From an uncultured Candidatus Saccharibacteria bacterium (lineage in GTDB: Bacteria; Patescibacteriota; Saccharimonadia; Saccharimonadales; Saccharimonadaceae), in assembly GCA_947304135.1 (NCBI GenBank), contig CAMYZZ010000009.1, positions 1 through 33,188 of the forward strand: 33,188 bases of DNA, given 5' to 3'. This document shows, piece by piece, positions 9,374 through 23,597 of this stretch (position 1 is its first letter; each line of letters begins with the position of its first letter). A model generated the notes under the pieces. That model made no database searches. It was not told the DNA's origin and was given only the letters and a program-made list of their open reading frames with translations. Made by a program: the position numbers and the translations under genes.

Positions 9374-9883
9374 TTAGACCGCCGTTTTGAGAGCAAATAG
9401 GGCGATACCGGCGGCCACAGAAACATTGAACGATTCTTTCTGGCCGACCATCGGAATTTCTATAAAGAGATCAATATAATCATAAAGGGATTTGTCTATA
9501 CCATAGACTTCTTCGCCGAGGATGAGCACAGCTTTTTGGCGGAGACGAGAGAGGAGAGCTGGCGAGCCCAGAGTAAACTTGCGGCCGTCGTTGATACGGT
9601 TTTCTAGGCCGATAATCTGGTAGCCTTCGGCTTTTAACTGTGGCAAAACGCGGCGGATATCATCAACATAGGATATAGGGATGTATTTTTCGGCGCCGAG
9701 CGAGGTTTTTTCTATCTGGCGGGCGAGTTTATCAGTCTGGTGCGGCAAGAGATTTGGGTTTTTGTCGCACGGGGTATAGCCAGAGCAGATTACCTGTTCC
9801 ACGCCCAAACCTTCGGCCGTCCGAAGAATTGCACCCACGTTGTAAGTTGATCTGATATTGTGCATCGACAATATGATTTCCAT
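9374..9883 (-). CDS. SpoU/TrmH-family RNA 2'-O-methyltransferase
   Basis: A 169-residue SPOUT-fold methyltransferase using S-adenosylmethionine. The three SpoU motifs are visible: motif 1 NIRSTYNVGAILRTAEGLG near residue 10, motif 2 LILGEEVYGID near 120, and motif 3 IEIPMVGQKESFNVSVAAG near 140. It has no N-terminal substrate-binding extension. The short length fits the TrmH/TrmL-like group acting on tRNA or rRNA, but the target base cannot be told. It is first in an operon with the Y-family polymerase. The ATG lies exactly six bases after a TATAAT box and has no ribosome site, so the mRNA is probably leaderless. Confidence 0.93.
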   Translation of the reverse strand: MEIILSMHNIRSTYNVGAILRTAEGLGVEQVICSGYTPCDKNPNLLPHQTDKLARQIEKTSLGAEKYIPISYVDDIRRVLPQLKAEGYQIIGLENRINDGRKFTLGSPALLSRLRQKAVLILGEEVYGIDKSLYDYIDLFIEIPMVGQKESFNVSVAAGIALFALKTAV

Positions 9884-14121: not shown

Positions 14122-14392
14122 CCTCTTTCCCACCTTTCTTTGACTTACTATTACCCTTATTATACTTACTGATAAAGGTATTCGCAAGGCCACTGACGAC
14201 AGAGGCGCCAAGGCCCTTAAATTTGTCGGCGACGTCATTGGCCTTGTCGGCTAAATCTACGCCAGACTGAGCGAGACGATTGAGTTTATTGATGAGTTTG
14301 ATGGATTTAATAAGGAAGATAATTCCAATAATCAGGAAGATGAAAAGTGTGCCGGCGAGAATGCCAACAATAATCCACTCTGCAACGTTCAT
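14108..14392 (-). CDS. Small membrane protein with coiled region (DUF948-like)
   Basis: A 94-residue protein with one N-terminal transmembrane helix (about residues 7-30, WIIVGILAGTLFIFLIIGII) followed by an amphipathic helical stretch (LADKANDVADKFKG) and a charged Lys-rich end. This layout resembles DUF948/YtxG-type proteins, which are often paired with YtxH-domain genes, as here. Its start shares one base with the galU stop (TAATG), so translation is coupled. Function unknown; probably an envelope-associated pair with the next gene. Confidence 0.75.
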   Translation of the reverse strand: MNVAEWIIVGILAGTLFIFLIIGIIFLIKSIKLINKLNRLAQSGVDLADKANDVADKFKGLGASVVSGLANTFISKYNKGNSKSKKGGKEDDER

Positions 14393-15261
14393 TAGTTCTC
14401 CTCCACGAAGGTTTTGACGTCGGCGTAATAATCTTCGTAATCCTTAACATAGCGGAGATGAGCCATGAAGTAGTTCTTTGGATCGCCGGTAGTCATCCAG
14501 GTGCCTTCGGTCTCTTTGACATAGACTCGGCCGGTTGGAATGAGGCGTGCGATTGCATCCGCAGTCCAGAGCTCACCATCTAGGCCAGTGTTTGCTGGGT
14601 TGAGGTGTTCAAATACTTCTGGGGTAAGTAGATAGCGACCATAGGAGGCAAGGTCGGATGGAGCTTCGGCTGGATCTGGTTTTTCTACGAGACCAACGAG
14701 CTTGTCACCGTCCATAGAGATGGAGGCGTATTTTTTAATTTCTTCGTGCTTGACTGGCTGACCGGCAATGATAGCGGCGGCATCTGGATGCTCTTTGAAA
14801 GAATCGATCAAATCTTTGACTGCACTCTGGCCAAAGACGACGTCGTCGGAATACGCCACAATGAAGGCCTCGTCGTCATTGATAAACTCACGTACAGAGG
14901 CAATTGGCGAGCCGTTGCCATAAGGCAAACTCTGGTCTTGCTGAATAATAGTAACTTTTGGGAAATTCAAAACTTTTTTGACTGGCTCAAAACGATCGGA
15001 CTTGCCTTGGGAAGCAAGCTGCTTTTCGATCTTTGGCACGGCGTTATGGAAGTAATCTTCGTAAATCTTGACACCATCTGGAGTAGCAACGATGATAATT
15101 TCTTCGATGCCGGCGTCGATACACTCCTCAACGACGAGCTGCATGATTGGTCTATTGCCAAGTGGAAGCATCGCTTTTGGAACGGTCTTCGTGATCGGCA
15201 AGTAGCGGCTAGCAAAACCCGCGTCGGTGATGATAGCCTTGGTAGGTTGTTTATAGTTCAT
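14392..15261 (-). CDS. galU: UTP-glucose-1-phosphate uridylyltransferase-like
   Basis: A 289-residue nucleotidyltransferase that would make UDP-glucose for glycan or lipid synthesis in the cytoplasm. I chose ATG 15261 because AAGGAG lies six bases before it; the 16 codons upstream overlap the promoter. Fold landmarks are present: an N-terminal nucleotide loop, TKTVPKAMLPLGNRPIMQ, a central YSDDVVFG (the metal-binding D), EKPDPAEAPS and TGDPKNYF. The loop reads DAGFASRYLP where GalU normally has AGxGTRFLP, so the second glycine and the threonine are changed while the arginine is kept. Specificity for glucose-1-phosphate is therefore likely but unproven. Confidence 0.9.
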   Translation of the reverse strand: MNYKQPTKAIITDAGFASRYLPITKTVPKAMLPLGNRPIMQLVVEECIDAGIEEIIIVATPDGVKIYEDYFHNAVPKIEKQLASQGKSDRFEPVKKVLNFPKVTIIQQDQSLPYGNGSPIASVREFINDDEAFIVAYSDDVVFGQSAVKDLIDSFKEHPDAAAIIAGQPVKHEEIKKYASISMDGDKLVGLVEKPDPAEAPSDLASYGRYLLTPEVFEHLNPANTGLDGELWTADAIARLIPTGRVYVKETEGTWMTTGDPKNYFMAHLRYVKDYEDYYADVKTFVEEN

Positions 15262-15280: not shown

Positions 15281-15309
15281 ATTATAGTATACTTATTATT
15301 TCTTGACAA
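15281..15309 (-). promoter_or_regulatory. Promoter of the galU operon
   Basis: TTGTCA, a 17-bp spacer, and TATAAT on the minus strand, 19 bases before the galU ATG. Confidence 0.75.
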
Positions 15310-15333: not shown

Positions 15334-16365
15334 TTAGGTGTGGCGGATTTTTTTGCGAACTTCTTCTATCAACTTGGTCTTTTGGTATTCTAGAGGTTTC
15401 AAGACCATATCATGGGCTGGCAAATATTTTAGCTCATCGCCGCCAAATCCACGCTTAAAGAAGGACACCCCATAGAAGCGGTGGTTCTTCTCATCTTCGC
15501 CAACAATTCCCCACAGATTGTAGCGTTTGATACCGCGTGCTCTGGCATCTTTCATCGCCTCAACATGAAGAATTGGCGAACCAGATAGTTTGGTGCCAAG
15601 GGCGGTTGAAGCAGCATAATGATATGATGCCTCATTGCCGTAGAAAATCATAAAATTCTGGGCAAGGATTTCGCCATCATATTTGGCGGTATAGAGAACT
15701 GCTTCGCCATTTTTAGCAAATGCGGCAAACTGTTTGGTGAGATAATCCTCAGAGAACTCTACAAAACTCTGGCGCTTGGCGGTCTGACTCTGAATCTGGT
15801 AGAAGGTATGAATATCTTTTGGATCGGTGGATTTTTCAATCGTGAAACCTTTGTTTCTGGCATTATTGACGGCATAGCGAATGCGGCGGTGCATATTCTT
15901 CAAAATTTCTTCTTCTGACTTGTTTAAGTCCAGTACAGCAGCATACTCTACGGAGAGAAAGGTTGGCGCAGGCTTCAAACCGTTATCTTTGAAAATTTTG
16001 TAGGCCTTCTCTGTACGCTCAAGCTGTGGGCGGACGCGGACAAAAACGCAATTATTGGCTTTGCCCTGCTCTCTGATATCCTCAAAAATAGCTTTGACTA
16101 ACTTTTTGTCGGAATAATCCATAATCGGTCCGCCAGCAATAGCTAGGTGACGACCACGTTTTGCGGTTTCTACAACGCCGGCGTAGGCAGCAAGAATTTT
16201 GGGAGATTTTTTAGCTGGGTCATCCACGGCAATACGTCGCACGACTTTTTTGCCACGGCTTTTGTGAAATTCGTAAAAATCCCAGGACTGTAAAAAGTTT
16301 GCTTCGGGATGAGAAGCGACAAACTTGTCCCATTTTTCCCTGTTTTCTGCATCAATTATTTTCAT
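15334..16365 (-). CDS. FemAB/FemX-like aminoacyl transferase 2
   Basis: A 343-residue protein of the Fem family (two GNAT-like folds), whose members add amino acids from aminoacyl-tRNA to the peptidoglycan stem peptide to form cross-bridges. Visible marks are FLQSWDFYEFHKSRGKK at the N-terminus, RYAVNNARNKGFTI in the middle and GIKRYNLWGI...FYGVSFFKRGFGG near the C-terminus. It is homologous to the preceding gene, sharing the LSKL/RYNLWGI and FKxGFGGE signature regions. The ATG overlaps the previous stop as ATGA. It is the last gene of a six-gene operon. The amino acid donated cannot be read from sequence. Confidence 0.92.
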   Translation of the reverse strand: MKIIDAENREKWDKFVASHPEANFLQSWDFYEFHKSRGKKVVRRIAVDDPAKKSPKILAAYAGVVETAKRGRHLAIAGGPIMDYSDKKLVKAIFEDIREQGKANNCVFVRVRPQLERTEKAYKIFKDNGLKPAPTFLSVEYAAVLDLNKSEEEILKNMHRRIRYAVNNARNKGFTIEKSTDPKDIHTFYQIQSQTAKRQSFVEFSEDYLTKQFAAFAKNGEAVLYTAKYDGEILAQNFMIFYGNEASYHYAASTALGTKLSGSPILHVEAMKDARARGIKRYNLWGIVGEDEKNHRFYGVSFFKRGFGGDELKYLPAHDMVLKPLEYQKTKLIEEVRKKIRHT

Positions 16366-17315
16366 AGGTGCCTCCTCTTTTTACGTAGTGACTCAATTAC
16401 GAAATCTGGTGCGTAACGAAGTTTAGACAGGATAATGTCATGCGCCGGAACATAGGTGACGATTTCGCCGCCAAAGCCAGTTTTGAAGGTAGTAACACCT
16501 GCATAGCGGTGGTGCGGCTGATTTGGTGGAGCGATGCCCCAGAGGTTGTAGCGCTTGATTCCTTTTTCCTTCAAATCTTTCATAACTTGCCACTGAATAG
16601 CGTAGGCGCCCGGCAGTTTATGATTTAGTTCAGTGCTAGCAGCCTCGTAATACTCGCCCTCAGCTCCGCTGACTAGGATTAGGCCATAAGCAATAGGCTG
16701 ACCATCTTCGGTCTTTGCGACATAGATTCTAGCATTGTCGCCAAAGGCTTCTTTTTCGGCTAGCAAGGTCTTTTTGTCTGGTGGAACAAAATGTTGACGT
16801 TCGGCGGTAATTACCTGGACTCTATGGAACTCGTCAAAAAGTTCTTCGCTATTGCCGCTTTCCACCTTGATTCCGAGCTTGCCAGCACGGCGAACTTCAT
16901 ACCTGGTCTGACGCCGCATATTAGCTAGGAGCTCATCTTCGCTTTTTGTTAGATCTATAATAACTGTATGCTCTGCAGCTAGGTGCATCGGGGATTTTTT
17001 AGCGCCGATGTTGGCCAGAATAGTACGGTTATCTGGAGTGTCCAGGAGCTGTGGGCGAAATCTGATAAACGCGGCGTTATGACGCTTGGCGGCTTGCCAC
17101 ATCAAGGCTCTAGCCTCTTTGATTTCCGACTTGTTTTGCCAGTCAATCAGCGGGCCGCCCGGAATTTCTAGATAGCGACCGCGCTTGGCGCATTTTACAA
17201 TCATAATCAGATTATTGCGGTTATCCAACTTTTCTTCAACCACTTTGTGACCAATTAGTTTGTTGGTCTTGGCCCAGACTTTGCTCTGGAGGAAATTTTT
17301 GTCCTCTAGTTTCAT
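16362..17315 (-). CDS. FemAB/FemX-like aminoacyl transferase 1
   Basis: A 317-residue Fem-family protein. It contains FLQSKVWAKTNK at the start, RRQTRYEVRRAGKLGIKV centrally, and GIKRYNLWGIAPPNQPHHRYAGVTTFKTGFGGE (given in outline) near the end. It is a paralogue of the next gene, about 25 residues shorter. Paired Fem proteins usually add successive residues of a branch (as MurM/MurN or FemA/FemB do), so a two-residue or mixed bridge is a reasonable inference. Start overlaps the DegT-1 stop as ATGA. Confidence 0.92.
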   Translation of the reverse strand: MKLEDKNFLQSKVWAKTNKLIGHKVVEEKLDNRNNLIMIVKCAKRGRYLEIPGGPLIDWQNKSEIKEARALMWQAAKRHNAAFIRFRPQLLDTPDNRTILANIGAKKSPMHLAAEHTVIIDLTKSEDELLANMRRQTRYEVRRAGKLGIKVESGNSEELFDEFHRVQVITAERQHFVPPDKKTLLAEKEAFGDNARIYVAKTEDGQPIAYGLILVSGAEGEYYEAASTELNHKLPGAYAIQWQVMKDLKEKGIKRYNLWGIAPPNQPHHRYAGVTTFKTGFGGEIVTYVPAHDIILSKLRYAPDFVIESLRKKRRHL

Positions 17316-18406
17316 TTTTCGTACTCCTCAATAATCTTAAAAGCTCTTTCTAGTTGGTCGGCCGGGTAGTAGGTCGGGATATTAACGATTTCTGACGCCA
17401 CTTTGGTCGCAACTGGACATTCTTTTTCTGGGAAACCTAGACTTTTGTAATACCTAACCGGCGAGACTGGTACGTCGTACCATATTTCTTTAAAATTGTA
17501 GCCGTTTTGGTCTAGCTTATTAATACAGCTCTTACGGTTTTTGACAAGACGGTGAGTGCGAATCGGCATAGCTCCATGCTCGTCATTTTTAATCATTTGT
17601 TTTGTGATTAATTTGGCTTGCCAGTGAGCCGGGCGACGAGCCAGATCCAGCTTAGCATCTACAGCGCGTTCAATAAAATGCAGCTTAATCAGTGGGCCAT
17701 ACCAGAATTTTTCTAAATGGATTTTGGAGAATAGGCGGCCAATTGCGCCAAGGAGCGGATACCATCTAGCGCGCAGTGTGTCAGGCAGTCTTGGGTGCTT
17801 GTTTTCAAAATGAAAGGTTTTGTCTTTTAAGATGAGTGCCCCGCCAGTGATAGCATCTAGAGATTTGCCTTTGCCAAAGGAGAGCGCGGCAGCATCGCCG
17901 ACAGAGCCAACCTCGCGGCCATCCATATAAGAGAAGCCAGCACAGTGAGCCAAATCTTCTATCAGCTTGAGGCCATGGCGCTTGGCAAAGGTTTCTATTT
18001 CTTCTATATTTACTGTAATACCAAGGGTGTTTTGGACAATAATCGCCCTGGCCTCTGGGTGACTTTTGAGAGCTTTTTCCAAAGTCTTAGTGTCAAAATT
18101 CAGAGTTTTTTCGTTGATATCAGCGTAAATTGGGGTACAGCCAGCATATTCTACTGCTTGCAAAACTGCATAGCAGGTGAAGCCATTGATAATCACTCCA
18201 CCACCATCTGGCAGAAGGGTTTTTAGGGCAGCAGCAATAGCACTGCGACCATTATTCATCAGATAAACCGACTTTGCACTGTAGCGTTTTTTTAGACTAG
18301 CCACAAGAATATCAGACCATTTCTTTGACGCTATGGCAAATGTATGGCATAGCACATCTTTGGCCTTGTAGTTTGAAGCCTGTCCCAAAAACAGCTTAGA
18401 TGACAC
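17312..18406 (-). CDS. DegT/DnrJ/EryC1/StrS-type PLP protein 1
   Basis: A 364-residue fold-type I PLP enzyme of the DegT/StrS group. It has EDLAHCAG (residues 150-157, the usual E-D-x-A-H site near the cofactor ring) and SFGKGKSLDAITGGA, where K181 holds the Schiff-base position of the family pattern SFxxxK. The start is GTG 18406, overlapping the DegT-2 stop by 11 bases. The alignment of SKLFLGQASNYKAKDVLCHTF with KRYFLGLCSHYEPMDIVRHTF of the neighbour supports this start. Members usually transfer an amino group to keto-sugars. Beside Fem and Mur proteins, the substrate here may be a cell-envelope sugar or peptide precursor, but that is inference. Confidence 0.9.
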   Translation of the reverse strand: MSSKLFLGQASNYKAKDVLCHTFAIASKKWSDILVASLKKRYSAKSVYLMNNGRSAIAAALKTLLPDGGGVIINGFTCYAVLQAVEYAGCTPIYADINEKTLNFDTKTLEKALKSHPEARAIIVQNTLGITVNIEEIETFAKRHGLKLIEDLAHCAGFSYMDGREVGSVGDAAALSFGKGKSLDAITGGALILKDKTFHFENKHPRLPDTLRARWYPLLGAIGRLFSKIHLEKFWYGPLIKLHFIERAVDAKLDLARRPAHWQAKLITKQMIKNDEHGAMPIRTHRLVKNRKSCINKLDQNGYNFKEIWYDVPVSPVRYYKSLGFPEKECPVATKVASEIVNIPTYYPADQLERAFKIIEEYEK

Positions 18407-20015
18407 TTGGGCCGCCTTTCTTACCGCTTTCTAGTTCTAGCTTCAACTTTTCTCTATCGGTTAGCTTTTTTGGAGCTTGCTTCATGATAGCGTTACCCTT
18501 AGCTTCCTTCTTGGAGCTATCGCTCACCAAGTCTCCTCGGACACCGGTCGCACGGCCTGTCGTTACAGGCGTGCTCCCTATCGTTCGCTCCCGTTGTCGC
18601 GAAGATTCCTCGGAGTCTTGGTTCGTGCTAGCTCCTTCAGTCTTCTTCGGTTCTACTTTCTTAGCCGGTTTCTCCTTAGACCTCTCAGAAGCATGGTTCG
18701 CATCGAGCTTCTTTGCCTTCTCGGATTCTCCGGCCTTCTCAGTTTTCTTAGTCTCGTCGGTTTTCTTCGAACCCTCCTTGGCTTTTTTAGCTTTTTTGGC
18801 GGCTTTCTTTTCTTTTTTGCGGGCGGCTTTTTCGGCTTTGATTTTGGCTTTTTTCTCTGACGGAGTCATAATACCGTTAAACTCGGCCTCGGCGAGCTCT
18901 GGATCTAGTGCATAATCTTTGATAATCTTGAGGGCTGGTTTGAGGTCGGACTTGTCGTACCAGGTTGGCAGGTTAATAATCCCCCTGGCTAGCTCGGTAG
19001 CGACCGGGCAGGATTCTGGATGGAAATCGGCTTTTTTAAAATACCTCTCTGGGGCGACCGGAGTAGTATACCACACATCATCAAAGAAATAACCCTCTTT
19101 CTCTAGTTTGTTTAGCAAAGTCTCGCGGTCGTGCACTAGATAGAATTCGCGAATTGGCCCACGACCCTGATGCGGCAGGGCTTGGAGCTGGCCAAGAGCA
19201 AGCTTGCACTGCCAATAAGTCATCCTCTGTCTAGTATTGACATCACCGTCCGCTGAGCGTTTAATAGCATGCATGTTGATTAGCCCTGCGGTGAAGGCTT
19301 TGCCGACTTTTGGATGGATATAGTACAGAGCACGGATTATCACAGTGAACAGTGGATAAAAACGAGCGCGGAAGACATCGGCTTTCTTTGGAAGCTCGGT
19401 TGGTTGCTCTATTGGCGTATCCAGAGCATCCGTAAAAACTACCGCACCACCGGTGATAGTATCGATGGATTTGCCCTTGCCAAAAGAGAGGACAGCGGCA
19501 CGGCCAACCGTACCAGCCTCGCGGCCATCGGCATATTTGATTCCGGCGCAGTGAGCAAGGTCTTCAATAATGACAAGCTTGTGCGCCTTGGCAACTTCTT
19601 CGATGGATGTTATATCGGCAGGAATGCCCAGATTGTTTTGGACGATGATGGCTTGGACATCTTTTTCGCCTTTGATAGCCTCTTCTAGCTCTTTACCGCC
19701 AAAATGAAGCGTCTTTTTGTCAACATCAGCAAAAATAGGGGTCATACCGGCAGATTTGACTGCCTGGACAACCGCATAGCAGGTGAGGCTAGTGACGACT
19801 ACCTTGCCGCCGCGTTTGGCGAGAGCCTTCAAAGCGACACTTAGTGCTGTACGGCCATTATTATAAACTGCAACGTGGTCAACCGTGGCGCCATAGTGCG
19901 CGGCCAGATAAGCACGGAGCCCGGACATACTAAACTCGTCACCAGACGTAAAAGTGTGACGCACAATATCCATTGGCTCGTAATGAGAACAAAGTCCTAA
20001 GAAATATCTTTTCAT
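18396..20015 (-). CDS. DegT/StrS-type PLP protein 2 with long disordered tail
   Basis: A 539-residue paralogue of the neighbouring DegT protein. Residues 1-375 form the enzyme: NNGRTALS for the cofactor phosphate region, EDLAHCAG (151-158), and SFGKGKSIDTITGGA with K182 as Schiff-base lysine. From about residue 375 a 165-residue tail begins, rich in Lys, Glu, Ala and Ser (EKKAKIKAEKAARKKEKKAA and similar), which looks disordered or coiled and has no counterpart in DegT-1. A palindromic repeat (copy B) sits inside the tail without breaking the frame. The start overlaps the hydrolase stop as ATGA. The tail might tether the enzyme to an acidic surface or partner. Confidence 0.9.
   Translation of the reverse strand: MKRYFLGLCSHYEPMDIVRHTFTSGDEFSMSGLRAYLAAHYGATVDHVAVYNNGRTALSVALKALAKRGGKVVVTSLTCYAVVQAVKSAGMTPIFADVDKKTLHFGGKELEEAIKGEKDVQAIIVQNNLGIPADITSIEEVAKAHKLVIIEDLAHCAGIKYADGREAGTVGRAAVLSFGKGKSIDTITGGAVVFTDALDTPIEQPTELPKKADVFRARFYPLFTVIIRALYYIHPKVGKAFTAGLINMHAIKRSADGDVNTRQRMTYWQCKLALGQLQALPHQGRGPIREFYLVHDRETLLNKLEKEGYFFDDVWYTTPVAPERYFKKADFHPESCPVATELARGIINLPTWYDKSDLKPALKIIKDYALDPELAEAEFNGIMTPSEKKAKIKAEKAARKKEKKAAKKAKKAKEGSKKTDETKKTEKAGESEKAKKLDANHASERSKEKPAKKVEPKKTEGASTNQDSEESSRQRERTIGSTPVTTGRATGVRGDLVSDSSKKEAKGNAIMKQAPKKLTDREKLKLELESGKKGGPSVI
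18513..18635. repeat. Palindromic repeat, copy B, in the DegT-2 tail
   Basis: A 123-bp palindrome: outer arms 18513-18536 and 18612-18635 pair at 19 of 24 positions. The inner hairpin has stem cctg/cagg with loop tcgtta (18556-18569). The core cgctcccgttgtcgc (18586-18600) is 15/15 identical to copy A and lies 30 bases from the hairpin start, as in copy A. It is translated in a different frame from copy A (here the core gives SRQRER; in leuS it gives ATTGAS). Confidence 0.85.
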
Positions 20016-20689
20016 CTTCCACCTCCTAGTGTGTCATAAATAGCGTGAGCGAGACCTTCTGGGTCGCAAATATATGGTGCGTGAGTCCAACCATCGAACA
20101 TCTTGAGCGTGCTGTTTTTGAGCAGGCTATGCATTTTGATGGCTTGACGCGGCGGAGTGACAGTGTCTGCCTTGCCCCAGAGAATAGTTGCAGGAGTGGT
20201 GATGGTCGAAAAATCTAGGCTTTTGTCGCTATCCAGCATGTTTGCCAAGGTCTTTTTCATGTTTTCTGGAGCGCGGTCATAATCTGCAGCGCCAAGCAAC
20301 TTATGATAGACTTTTCTAAGTGGCTTAATGGACTTTAGAGGGGACATCACCTTGGAAACTTTGCGGGAAACATCGCGTTTTTTGGAATCTTCGTAGATAC
20401 CAGCGGCGTCTAGCAAAATCACATGCTCCAGCTTACCTGGCTTTTTGCTAAGTAGGTTTAGGAGGATGCGACCACCGTTACTATGACCCAATGCAACTGC
20501 CCCATCTGGGATATTTTGGTCGGCCCAGGCGGCGTAATCTTCTACTGTCCAAACCTTGTCGGATGGCGATGTTAGACCTGGAACGAGCAACATTTTGATT
20601 TCGATGCCGTGTTCTTTTAGGATTTTGATGGTGTTTTCCCAGGGAGCGACTGTATAAGTCCACCCATGAATAACGTATAACGTTTTCAT
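20012..20689 (-). CDS. Alpha/beta hydrolase
   Basis: A 225-residue cytoplasmic alpha/beta hydrolase. Visible marks are HGW near residue 8 for the oxyanion region, the nucleophile elbow GHSNGG (S70), and an acid at D175 (WGKADTVTPP). The histidine is H203 (DGWTHAPY). The set forms a complete Ser-Asp-His triad. The family covers esterases, thioesterases and related enzymes; the substrate is unknown. Its start shares one base with the Mur ligase stop (TAATG) and its end overlaps DegT-2 (ATGA), so it is a fixed part of the envelope operon, perhaps removing an ester or thioester from an intermediate. Confidence 0.88.
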   Translation of the reverse strand: MKTLYVIHGWTYTVAPWENTIKILKEHGIEIKMLLVPGLTSPSDKVWTVEDYAAWADQNIPDGAVALGHSNGGRILLNLLSKKPGKLEHVILLDAAGIYEDSKKRDVSRKVSKVMSPLKSIKPLRKVYHKLLGAADYDRAPENMKKTLANMLDSDKSLDFSTITTPATILWGKADTVTPPRQAIKMHSLLKNSTLKMFDGWTHAPYICDPEGLAHAIYDTLGGGR

Positions 20690-21978
20690 TATTTTAGTCC
20701 TCTTTTTTCCCTTCTTTTTACATAAACTGGTTCACGGCGGGCAAGCTTTGCGGCGTCTTCTGGGTTTTTGAGTAGCTTTTCTACGAGCCACTCTAGGTAT
20801 TGGCTGCCCTTAAAGACCAATACTTCTTCGCCAGTGGTGTTTTCTTCGATGTATTTTAGCGCCTCCTTGACATTGTCTAGCGCCACGGCTTTAACCTTTT
20901 TCTTCTTTAATATAGGATAGGTATATTTTTTGGTGCGGCGACCAACGAGAATGACCCTGGCCGGCTCGGCCTCTATAATAGCCTGGGCAAGGCGCTCGTG
21001 CTGTTCGCCCTCTATCTTACCCTGTTCGATCATGTCACCAATCACAAGCCAGAGGTTGCGGGATTTCATCTGGGCGGCCATCTCTAGGATAGACTTGACG
21101 CTGATAAGATGGGCGTTGTAGCTGCTATCGATCAGGGTGAGACCGTTTTTACCTTCAAAATAGGAGCTGCGGCCAGGTGGAAGTGGCATACCAGAAAAGT
21201 CGGTCTTGGGTTTGATTCTGAGGTAGCCACAGAGTTTTTTGAGCATGACGAGCTGGATTGCCAGTGCGCGGGGTTGTGGCGACGAGAAATGAAAGGTAGT
21301 GTCGCCGACGATATAATCTGTAGATGTTGGCGTAATGACATAGCCGCTGAGGTCGGATTTGTAGCATTCTACCACTTTGGCTTTGATATTGTGGTGGAGC
21401 TTAATCTTCTCCAGAGCCTTGGTCATGAGGTAAATATCGCCATCAATATAAATCTGTTTTTTGGTATACTGCGGAAGCATGGCAAACTCGTGGGTGATAG
21501 CACGGTCGATATCTCTAAACTCGCCATTTTCTACCTGACGTTCAAACTGGACAGCATGCGAGCGGCCAAGAGAGATCCAGAGTGTAACCTCTGGGCGAAG
21601 CCACTTTGCCAAGAACTCGGTCTCGTGCGGGCGCTCGCCATCGATTTCTACCACATAGAACTCGCCGTGACGGCGATAAAAAATCGATTTAATAGGAACT
21701 AAGAAGAAGAGCCAGAGCCAGCGAAGCTTGCTGCCGGAAACACCATGTGTGCCAACCAGGTCAAATGAGATGCCAAAGGCGGAGTTGGCTCCATGGGAAT
21801 AGTGGGCCTTGTCACCGAGCTGATATTCTAGCATGTGAAGCATGGTTGTCTTGCCGACCGAACCAGTAATTGCAATAATGCGCGGATTCCAGCGGCGCAA
21901 GGAAAAATTGGCGAAAAACCGAAAATATCCGGCCGCAATAAAGTAAAAACGCTTCTTAAATCGCGTTACATAACTCAT
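20689..21978 (-). CDS. Mur ligase-like protein lacking the N-terminal substrate domain
   Basis: A 429-residue ATP-dependent ligase related to MurF. The P-loop GSVGKTT is at residues 39-45, whereas in MurF it comes after a UDP-MurNAc-peptide binding domain of about 100 residues, which is missing here. The central domain has EIDGERPHETEFL and SLGRSHAVQFE where MurF has the GAxxxGEI and NIGxAHLE motifs. The C-terminal domain has IDSSYNAH and VIGDMIEQG...EGEQHERLA, then VLVFKGSQYLEWLVEKLL. The N-terminus (residues 1-30) is basic and hydrophobic and may touch the membrane. Relatives without the first Mur domain include CapB/PgsB, MurT and cyanophycin-type ligases, so the substrate may not be a UDP-sugar. 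First gene of the operon; probably leaderless. Confidence 0.88.
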   Translation of the reverse strand: MSYVTRFKKRFYFIAAGYFRFFANFSLRRWNPRIIAITGSVGKTTMLHMLEYQLGDKAHYSHGANSAFGISFDLVGTHGVSGSKLRWLWLFFLVPIKSIFYRRHGEFYVVEIDGERPHETEFLAKWLRPEVTLWISLGRSHAVQFERQVENGEFRDIDRAITHEFAMLPQYTKKQIYIDGDIYLMTKALEKIKLHHNIKAKVVECYKSDLSGYVITPTSTDYIVGDTTFHFSSPQPRALAIQLVMLKKLCGYLRIKPKTDFSGMPLPPGRSSYFEGKNGLTLIDSSYNAHLISVKSILEMAAQMKSRNLWLVIGDMIEQGKIEGEQHERLAQAIIEAEPARVILVGRRTKKYTYPILKKKKVKAVALDNVKEALKYIEENTTGEEVLVFKGSQYLEWLVEKLLKNPEDAAKLARREPVYVKRREKRGLK

Positions 21979-21984
21979 ACATCC

Positions 21985-21993
21985 ATTATACCA
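21985..21993 (-). promoter_or_regulatory. Extended -10 of the envelope operon (leaderless)
   Basis: TGGTATAAT on the minus strand, then GGATGT and the ATG at 21978. The -35 region falls against the left arm of the palindrome at 22004-22025; no clear -35 hexamer is present at 17 bp. Confidence 0.65.
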
Positions 21994-22003
21994 TACGTTG
22001 ATA

Positions 22004-22173
22004 AAATCAAGATGTAATCCAGTTTCTCGCAGCAGTTTTTCTCAAGGCAAAAACAAAATAACCTACTTAGTCAAGTCTGCGCCCGGACATCACTGCCGGT
22101 GCTCGACATTGTAAGTAGGTTATTTTGTTTTGTTTCGAAAAGAGCTGCTTAAAACTGGATTACATCTTGATTT
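22004..22173. repeat. Nested 170-bp palindrome containing the rpsJ stop codon
   Basis: The outer arms (22004-22025 and 22152-22173) are a perfect 22-bp inverted repeat. The right arm holds the last codons and stop of rpsJ. The inner arms (22050-22069 and 22112-22131) are a perfect 20-bp inverted repeat. Between the outer and inner arms the sequences are also partly complementary (gcagcag against the complement of agctgctt). The central 42 bases are GC-rich, unlike the A/T-rich inner arms, with CCGG blocks able to pair. On the minus strand the inner stem ends in ATTTTGTTTTT, so it can terminate rpsJ transcription. Confidence 0.9.
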
Positions 22174-22510
22174 CTGCGTCAACGCCAGCTGGGAGAGAAA
22201 GATTCTGGAGAGAATCGATTGTCTTTGGGGTAGCGTTTAGGATGTCGATGAGGCGCTTGTGAACTTTCATCTCGAATGCTTCACCACCGGTCTTGTAGAC
22301 GTGTGGGGATTTGACAACGGTGAAAGTGCTGCGCTTGGTTGGCAAAGGTACTGGGCCAGATACTCTAGCGCCGGTACGGATAGCGGTGTCAACGATTTGT
22401 TTGGCACTCTGGTCGATCACGCGGTGATCGTAGGCTTTGAGGCGGATGCGAATTTTGAGGCCCTCATCCTTCACGGCCTTGGTGGTTTTAGCAGTTTTTG
22501 CTTCTGCCAT
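22160..22510 (-). CDS. rpsJ: 30S ribosomal protein S10
   Basis: A 116-residue S10, also the NusE antitermination factor in other bacteria. The core from [18 protein letters not shown] to the end is complete, with [21 protein letters not shown] (in outline) and the conserved C-terminal VDAEIKM. The first 17 residues are an Ala/Lys extension. AAAGGA lies six bases before the ATG. Downstream there is no rplC or rplD, so this gene is detached from the usual S10 operon. It lies 3' of tuf in the ancestral order, but separated by about 2.7 kb. The gene ends inside a palindrome. Confidence 0.98.
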
Positions 22511-22727: not shown

Positions 22728-23597
22728 TTACGAACTCCACCAATGTTTGCCATTCTCAAGTTGCTCCATGCGTTTTCTTCTGCGAGCACAAAACTCATCT
22801 AGCTTATCTGGGTGAACCCAGCGGTTGAAGATTGCAGACGAGGTTTTGATCGGTGTGCTCGCTGTAAGCGGGCTGCTTGATTGCAAGCCTGGATCTACGT
22901 CTAGAGTCTTGTCTGGGTCTGAATTCTTACCGGTGTTTGACGCTAGATTTCGGCTTTTTGCCGGATGACGTTTGCCATCTGCAGCTTTGATGTTTTTCTT
23001 CTTCTCTTTTTTGAGCTTTTCTCGTGCGGTTTTCATGGCGGCTTTTCTGACTTCCAGCATATCCTCCTCTTCTGTAACCTTAGCAACTTCTGCCTTTTCG
23101 GTCGCCCAGATTTTCTCGGAGCGCTCAGCCGCTTGATGCTGGCCTATCGCCTCTACTTGCCCTACTTGGTTTGCGACACCTTTGACTTGGTCGCTGGACT
23201 TCTTGATTTCTTCGGATATTTTGACCATAATCCGAATCGTCAAAGCGTTGTACCAAGAGCGAAGTTCTTCTTCGTCGGGCGCGCACCTCTCGTGAAAGAG
23301 TTTTGGATATTTTTCATAGAGCTCTGCGGCGGATAATGGGACGTTTGTGTCAATGCCATAGTAGTCTCGGAGGTACTCATACGCGTTGTATCCCTTATCT
23401 GGAGAAATATAAGTGAGGTCTGACCATTTGTCTAGAGCTAGACCTTCTTCTTTGCAAGATATCACCAGGTTCATGGTTGCTAGCTCTTGCTCTAGAGGCA
23501 GTTTGGATTCTGCTTCTACGTGATTGACGTATTTGATAATTAGGTCAATCTTTTTATCTCTCGCCGCTTCTCGTATTGAACTAACTGTAATTTGCAT
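22728..23597 (-). CDS. Hypothetical protein, charged, probably cytoplasmic
   Basis: A 289-residue protein of no family I recognise. It has no signal peptide or membrane helix. The first about 130 residues look folded (mixed, with aromatic-rich DKGYNAYEYLRDYYGID and LRSWYNALTIRIMVKISEE). Residues about 130-205 are charged and probably a coiled coil (KAAMKTAREKLKKEKKKN). Next comes a Ser/Thr/Pro/Asp-rich low-complexity linker, then a conserved-looking end with FNRWVHPDKLDEFCARRRKR. The ribosome site GGGGGTGAT is five bases before ATG. It has its own promoter and terminator and lies between tuf and rpsJ. Confidence 0.82.
   Translation of the reverse strand: MQITVSSIREAARDKKIDLIIKYVNHVEAESKLPLEQELATMNLVISCKEEGLALDKWSDLTYISPDKGYNAYEYLRDYYGIDTNVPLSAAELYEKYPKLFHERCAPDEEELRSWYNALTIRIMVKISEEIKKSSDQVKGVANQVGQVEAIGQHQAAERSEKIWATEKAEVAKVTEEEDMLEVRKAAMKTAREKLKKEKKKNIKAADGKRHPAKSRNLASNTGKNSDPDKTLDVDPGLQSSSPLTASTPIKTSSAIFNRWVHPDKLDEFCARRRKRMEQLENGKHWWSS

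Follow-up and report, generated by a model that had tools for sequence, protein, structure and literature searches.

Saccharibacteria are tiny, genome-reduced and probably parasitic bacteria that are hard to study. We analysed a 33,188-nt stretch of DNA from an uncultured Candidatus Saccharibacteria bacterium (assembly GCA_947304135.1, contig CAMYZZ010000009.1; hereafter the window), which is one entire contig of a 711-kb genome whose assembly is 96.7% complete. Six open reading frames on its minus strand, running from 21978 to 15334, make up an operon whose products probably bring peptidoglycan precursor synthesis to a variant close, in connection with loss of the ligase Ddl. From 5' to 3', the genes are:

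20689..21978, minus strand: MurF-like ligase, here called W, 429 amino acids (aa), lacking the domain that binds uridine diphosphate N-acetylmuramic acid (UDP-MurNAc); PF02875
20012..20689, minus strand: alpha/beta hydrolase, 225 aa, catalytic triad S70-D175-H203; PF00561
18396..20015, minus strand: DegT-type pyridoxal phosphate (PLP) enzyme 1, 539 aa, a catalytic domain (aa 1-375) followed by a Lys/Glu-rich tail; PF01041
17312..18406, minus strand: DegT-type PLP enzyme 2, 364 aa, a paralogue of enzyme 1 (45% identical); PF01041
16362..17315, minus strand: Fem1, a FemAB-type transferase, 317 aa; PF02388
15334..16365, minus strand: Fem2, a FemX-type transferase, 343 aa; PF02388

Consecutive frames overlap by 1 (TAATG), 4, 11, 4 and 4 bases, and for most of the internal genes a Shine-Dalgarno-like GAGG or AGGAGG lies within the preceding gene. 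All six proteins match their Pfam families above the curated cut-offs. The open reading frames, their overlaps and the Pfam matches bear out the six overlapping genes and the families named in a preliminary description of this DNA. The arrangement exceeds chance, with the same gene order in about 22 of the 25 W loci examined, from several families.

In the textbook scheme, MurC to MurF act in order on a soluble UDP-linked precursor, which is closed by the D-Ala-D-Ala that Ddl makes; this constant is the basis of several antibiotics. W resembles MurF in its central and C-terminal domains, its catalytic Glu and His and its YNA motif, and it keeps the P-loop (TGSxGKTT) as well as E111, H141, R270, D284, N288 and K390. 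It matches the NCBIfam MurF model (TIGR01143) at 98.3 bits, below the curated cut-off of 288.6. The predicted structure (AlphaFold2; mean predicted local distance difference test score 90, predicted template modelling score 0.88) likewise finds MurF first when compared with solved folds (3zl8; Foldseek and VIA-align; Z 31.6 over 341 residues, 2.6 A), in an alignment that begins at MurF residue 62. W differs from MurF in lacking the N-P that follows YNA, the carbamylated lysine and the UDP-binding domain, and in standing in a genome with no detected Ddl. The carbamylated position is K in 12/12 canonical MurF sequences and F, Y or L in W, mostly with an acidic residue beside it. In place of the N-terminal UDP-MurNAc-binding domain, which is absent from the model and for which the open frames leave no room, W is predicted to have one helix (residues 3-30, 28 residues), and an extra hydrophobic helix occurs at 84-100. 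In a quick tree of MurF-like ligases, W forms one clade (support 100).

The cell-wall inventory of the window's own genome narrows the role of W. Five Mur-ligase proteins were found, namely MurC, MurD, MurE, W and a 247-aa MurE-like piece, and because none of the others is MurF-like, W is the only MurF candidate. Profile searches of this genome, on which these absences rest, returned no match for Ddl (PF07478), Alr, MurI (which is patchy in the genus) or an L,D-transpeptidase. The genome does encode two penicillin-binding proteins (PBPs), one class B-like and one class A, with the SxxK, SxN and KTG motifs intact in both.

The absence of Ddl where the operon stands, a point missed in the preliminary description, is the strongest clue to its function. 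We scored W (E<1e-100) and Ddl (E<1e-15) in 295 genomes of the same Saccharibacteria order, most of them fragmented: 87 carry W only, 181 Ddl only, 2 both and 25 neither, such that 87 of the 89 genomes with W lack a strong PF07478 match. The Fisher value for this table, 7e-49, ignores relatedness and is not to be read as a probability. More informative is the switch within single genera. In genus g32, 12 genomes carry W without Ddl and two (G155 and G161) carry Ddl without W, and in g38, W without Ddl (G172) and Ddl without W (G179 and G235) occur alongside three genomes with neither.

Lack of the UDP-binding domain had been listed in the preliminary description among the signs of an unconventional pathway. 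The domain is indeed missing from the W model; as a distinguishing feature of the operon, however, its loss had to be rejected, since it extends to other ligases of the order. MurE of the window's own genome scores 406 bits, above its cut-off, yet matches only from profile position ~70. Among 60 relatives, a few of which gave only weak or split matches, the MurE match begins at ~58-78 in nearly every genome with a whole gene; two start earlier, at 39 and 46, which also falls within the lost domain, and are probably chance extensions. Every complete MurE found thus lacks the domain. In several relatives the murE open frame spans 414-420 codons, leaving no room for the domain. The same holds for two other MurF-like groups, MurS (~420 aa), which also lacks the domain, and MurL (~475 aa), which has transmembrane helices in its place. 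Judged from these sequences, UDP-domain loss is an order-wide trait of MurE- and MurF-like ligases. MurS and MurL have also lost the carbamylated lysine, mostly with an acidic residue at or beside that position, and in the quick tree they fall with W on one side versus canonical MurF (approximate likelihood ratio support, SH-aLRT, 94), with two long-branch rows labelled as MurS placed elsewhere. Much of the genus retains a MurE-like protein of ~250 aa with the central domain only (L044:8452-9195; contig C1 of the window's genome, G000); its gene often lies next to murE in divergent orientation, and it may be a regulatory or scaffold relic.

Conservation of gene order across Saccharibacteria had been named as a check on the operon, and lack of co-conservation in relatives as a ground for refuting it; the genes proved to be co-conserved over several families. 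Almost every genome of the window's genus carries W, which occurs sporadically in the other families of the order; close relatives on named contigs, among the matches listed, are all Candidatus Saccharibacteria. Families f1, f9, f31 and f37 show the series W-hydrolase-PLP-Fem again in very different genomic contexts, and f13 has part of it at a contig edge. The hydrolase gene follows W directly in about 22 of the 25 W loci examined, with a PLP gene next in 19 of those. In G054, G130 and L082 the PLP gene is missing at that place while W, hydrolase and Fem remain. Each cassette holds one or two FemX-like transferases, Fem2 being the most widely kept. The PLP pair is found in the window's genome and in G029, G031 and G032, most others having a single copy, so that by sequence comparison PLP enzyme 2 stems from a local duplication. 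We therefore reject the six-gene set as the conserved unit, which is instead the five-gene series Mur-Hyd-PLP-Fem1-Fem2. The earlier proposal that overlapping coupling implies one pathway holds insofar as the genes are co-conserved and very likely act on the cell wall, combining MurF-type ligation with FemX-type transfer, and fails for six genes with two PLP enzymes as a unit. Very similar operons occur in single members of different families (L066, L169 and L170, from f9, f37 and f31, respectively; Fem 68-70% identical), which suggests that the cassette was transferred as a unit between families. In genus g32 the operon (L161:9476-13803; L082:10285-12629) can lack the PLP gene and may include a TMEM43-like gene (L161); downstream of it lie genes for a DUF308 protein, a 316-318 aa Mur-ligase-like protein and, as checked in L161, a ParA/MinD-type ATPase.

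The hydrolase triad is conserved in 23 sequences, and the nearest relatives are esterases and lipases. The PLP enzymes conserve the PLP residues D152 and K182 and share the fold, lysine and aspartate of the DegT/DnrJ/EryC1/StrS sugar aminotransferases (QdtB, perosamine synthase, ArnB); by sequence, the nearest solved structures are such enzymes (QdtB at 1e-33, also perosamine synthase). They differ from that group in that no sugar pathway adjoins them and in falling far under every NCBIfam equivalog cut-off (best 84-92 bits, cut-offs 375-650). In the window's genus they lack part of the small domain, and a weak structural model (local score 72, three sequences) gives only the sugar-aminotransferase fold class. 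The Lys/Glu-rich tail of PLP enzyme 1, ~160 residues (window 18396-18890), is seen in the small clade with the duplicated gene, and other proteins of the same genome carry tails like it. Fem1 and Fem2 pass the PF02388 cut-off at 130 and 149 bits, and are thereby members of the FemX/FmhB/FemAB family. Fem2 lies nearest the S. aureus lipid II:glycine glycyltransferase (6snr, E 1e-31; FemX 1ne9, E 4e-19). The two differ from the known members in sharing one operon with a Mur ligase.

Sequence features at the ends of the gene series, listed here with the downstream neighbour, point to the limits of the operon:

21985..21993, minus strand: putative operon promoter, an extended -10 element (TGGTATAAT) ending 6 nt before the W ATG; no Shine-Dalgarno
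15281..15309, minus strand: promoter-like site of the GalU-like gene, TTGTCA-17-TATAAT, 11/12 consensus matches and the best of the region (a consensus match only)
14392..15261, minus strand: GalU-like nucleotidyltransferase, neighbour of the operon; its listed start at 15309 is a TTG, while the ATG at 15261 has a Shine-Dalgarno

In 29/30 genomes of the genus the W start is preceded, at a distance of 6-8 nt (mostly exactly 6), by a box of the TATAAT type, usually TGnTATAAT, again with no Shine-Dalgarno. A leaderless transcript would have this appearance; the W mRNA is thus probably leaderless and W the first gene of the operon. The arrangement of TGnTATAAT, exactly 6 nt and ATG, with no Shine-Dalgarno, is also seen on the minus strand upstream of dnaE (13752) and of a gene at 9883, and leaderless promoters may be common in the lineage of the window. 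At the other end, the operon most likely stops at Fem2, because GalU has its own promoter-like site. GalU was considered as a seventh gene and rejected on account of this site and of its not being kept in all loci; it is probably a neighbour outside the unit. Beyond the operon promoter, a 289-aa protein (22728-23597) has no Pfam or NCBIfam match and adjoins a small gene (22160-22510) resembling ribosomal protein S10.

Two known arrangements come close to W. MurT, part of the lipid II isoglutaminyl synthase MurT/GatD, is like W a Mur ligase without the UDP domain; it works at the membrane on lipid II, and the authors of that study argued that the domain would be superfluous there and would clash with the membrane (PMC6113224). 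W differs in that none of the six genes is a GatD, the ground on which we rejected its membership in the MurT/GatD system, and in that MurT models are not among its NCBIfam matches up to E 0.001. The other is found in Ddl-bearing relatives from other families of the order (L070, L071, L073, L077, L173 and L175), in which MurL, also a MurF-like ligase without the UDP domain, adjoins an alpha/beta hydrolase and lies near Ddl; these loci differ in the transmembrane helices of MurL, in the proximity of Ddl and in that no PLP or Fem genes were seen beside them. No description of the operon, or of Ddl loss, was found in the open-licence literature on Saccharibacteria, Patescibacteria or the candidate phyla radiation.

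We lean, by a modest degree, towards a model in which the cassette completes the stem peptide in a clade that lost both Ddl and canonical MurF, replacing the two and adding a side-chain bridge, after which the PBPs cross-link. Here W would use ATP to couple one amino acid, or a dipeptide, to the carboxyl terminus of MurE's tripeptide product. W likely performs this MurF step, which extends the peptide at the carboxyl group of residue 3, because it is the sole candidate by elimination and has the matching fold. Since neither W nor MurE has the UDP-binding domain, both may act at the membrane, as MurT does, on a muramyl peptide linked to lipid; this part we propose tentatively, as a reasonable but not a favoured bet. 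W would be held there by its N-terminal helix (3-30) and its hydrophobic helix (84-100). Fem2, which is FmhB/FemX-like, and Fem1 would load one or two residues derived from aminoacyl-tRNA on the side chain of residue 3 to form a cross-bridge, and the two intact PBPs would then cross-link. Because the PBPs are intact, the stem should end in a form open to a D,D-transpeptidase, yet the searches detected no enzyme for D-Ala or D-Ala-D-Ala; the terminal residues may be a D,D-dipeptide, imported or otherwise made (for example by an unrecognised enzyme), or a different ending. The PLP enzyme and the hydrolase probably prepare or trim the added group. The hydrolase probably serves the MurF-type step, because W loci and MurL-Ddl loci alike place it next to a ligase of the MurF type, and the PLP enzyme appears accessory, because three W loci lack it. 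Chlamydia offers a precedent for the missing racemase, in that its D-Ala comes from the PLP enzyme GlyA instead of from Alr (PMC3935232), and by analogy the operon's PLP enzyme could possibly supply a D-amino acid, a role disfavoured by the three loci without it and by its sugar-enzyme relatives.

Several observations weigh against this model. The negative PF07478 result could hide a diverged or unrelated ligase, and the 295 genomes are non-independent samples. One genome (G061), known from a fragmented assembly, has W on one contig and a hydrolase-MurL-Ddl locus on another, and a second genome (G182) has W plus a weaker Ddl-like match (1.4e-17). The 25 genomes with neither gene imply that Ddl loss needs no W, and led us to reject a strict one-to-one replacement of Ddl by W. 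A plain stem-peptide pathway offers no role for an enzyme resembling sugar aminotransferases. Finally, with the carbamylated lysine and the N-P motif lost, the activity of W, or its donor, may differ from that of MurF.

In another explanation W is simply an ordinary MurF and, despite the lost domain, couples imported, host-derived D-Ala-D-Ala to UDP-MurNAc-tripeptide, the Fem proteins make an ordinary bridge, and only Ddl loss and drift are unusual. Such scavenging would agree with the absence of detected Alr, MurI and Ddl in a presumed epibiont, with the MurF-type C-domain of W and with the relatives that have neither Ddl nor W. It leaves unexplained why W, rather than MurS or MurL, marks the Ddl-free genomes, why a hydrolase and PLP enzyme accompany it, and why both MurE and MurF types lost the UDP domain, and we regard it as unlikely.

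Rather doubtful, too, is a role in a surface polymer, the second option of the preliminary description, in which the PLP enzymes would make an amino sugar, the Fem proteins aminoacylate it and W add peptide to a non-murein glycan. The sugar-aminotransferase kinship of the PLP enzymes, the GNAT fold of N-acyltransferases in the Fem proteins and the presence of GalU beside the operon in several genomes all speak for it. Yet GalU seems to have its own promoter, the unit contains no dehydratase or glycosyltransferase, three loci dispense with the PLP gene while keeping W, hydrolase and Fem, and the genome would be left with no MurF at all.

A salvage function, with the hydrolase and W as a peptide-recycling pair (compare Mpl) that cleaves and re-joins host-derived muropeptides or dipeptides, is improbable: the pairing of hydrolase and MurF-type ligase in both kinds of locus and the missing D-amino acid synthesis genes would fit it, whereas the hydrolase is nearest to esterases rather than peptidases, Mpl is MurC-like with a UDP domain, and the unit has no transporter. 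It is very improbable that W and a partner amidate or decorate a finished lipid-linked stem as MurT does instead of completing it, since, despite the shared domain loss and related fold, the six genes include no glutamine amidotransferase, W matches MurF and not MurT models, and the genome would keep no other MurF.

The textbook constant would be broken by a large clade that retains PBPs although Ddl, Alr and canonical MurF go undetected in it, and by an order in which the MurE and MurF types have lost the UDP-binding domain. The operon makes the question of how Saccharibacteria build their wall a testable one.

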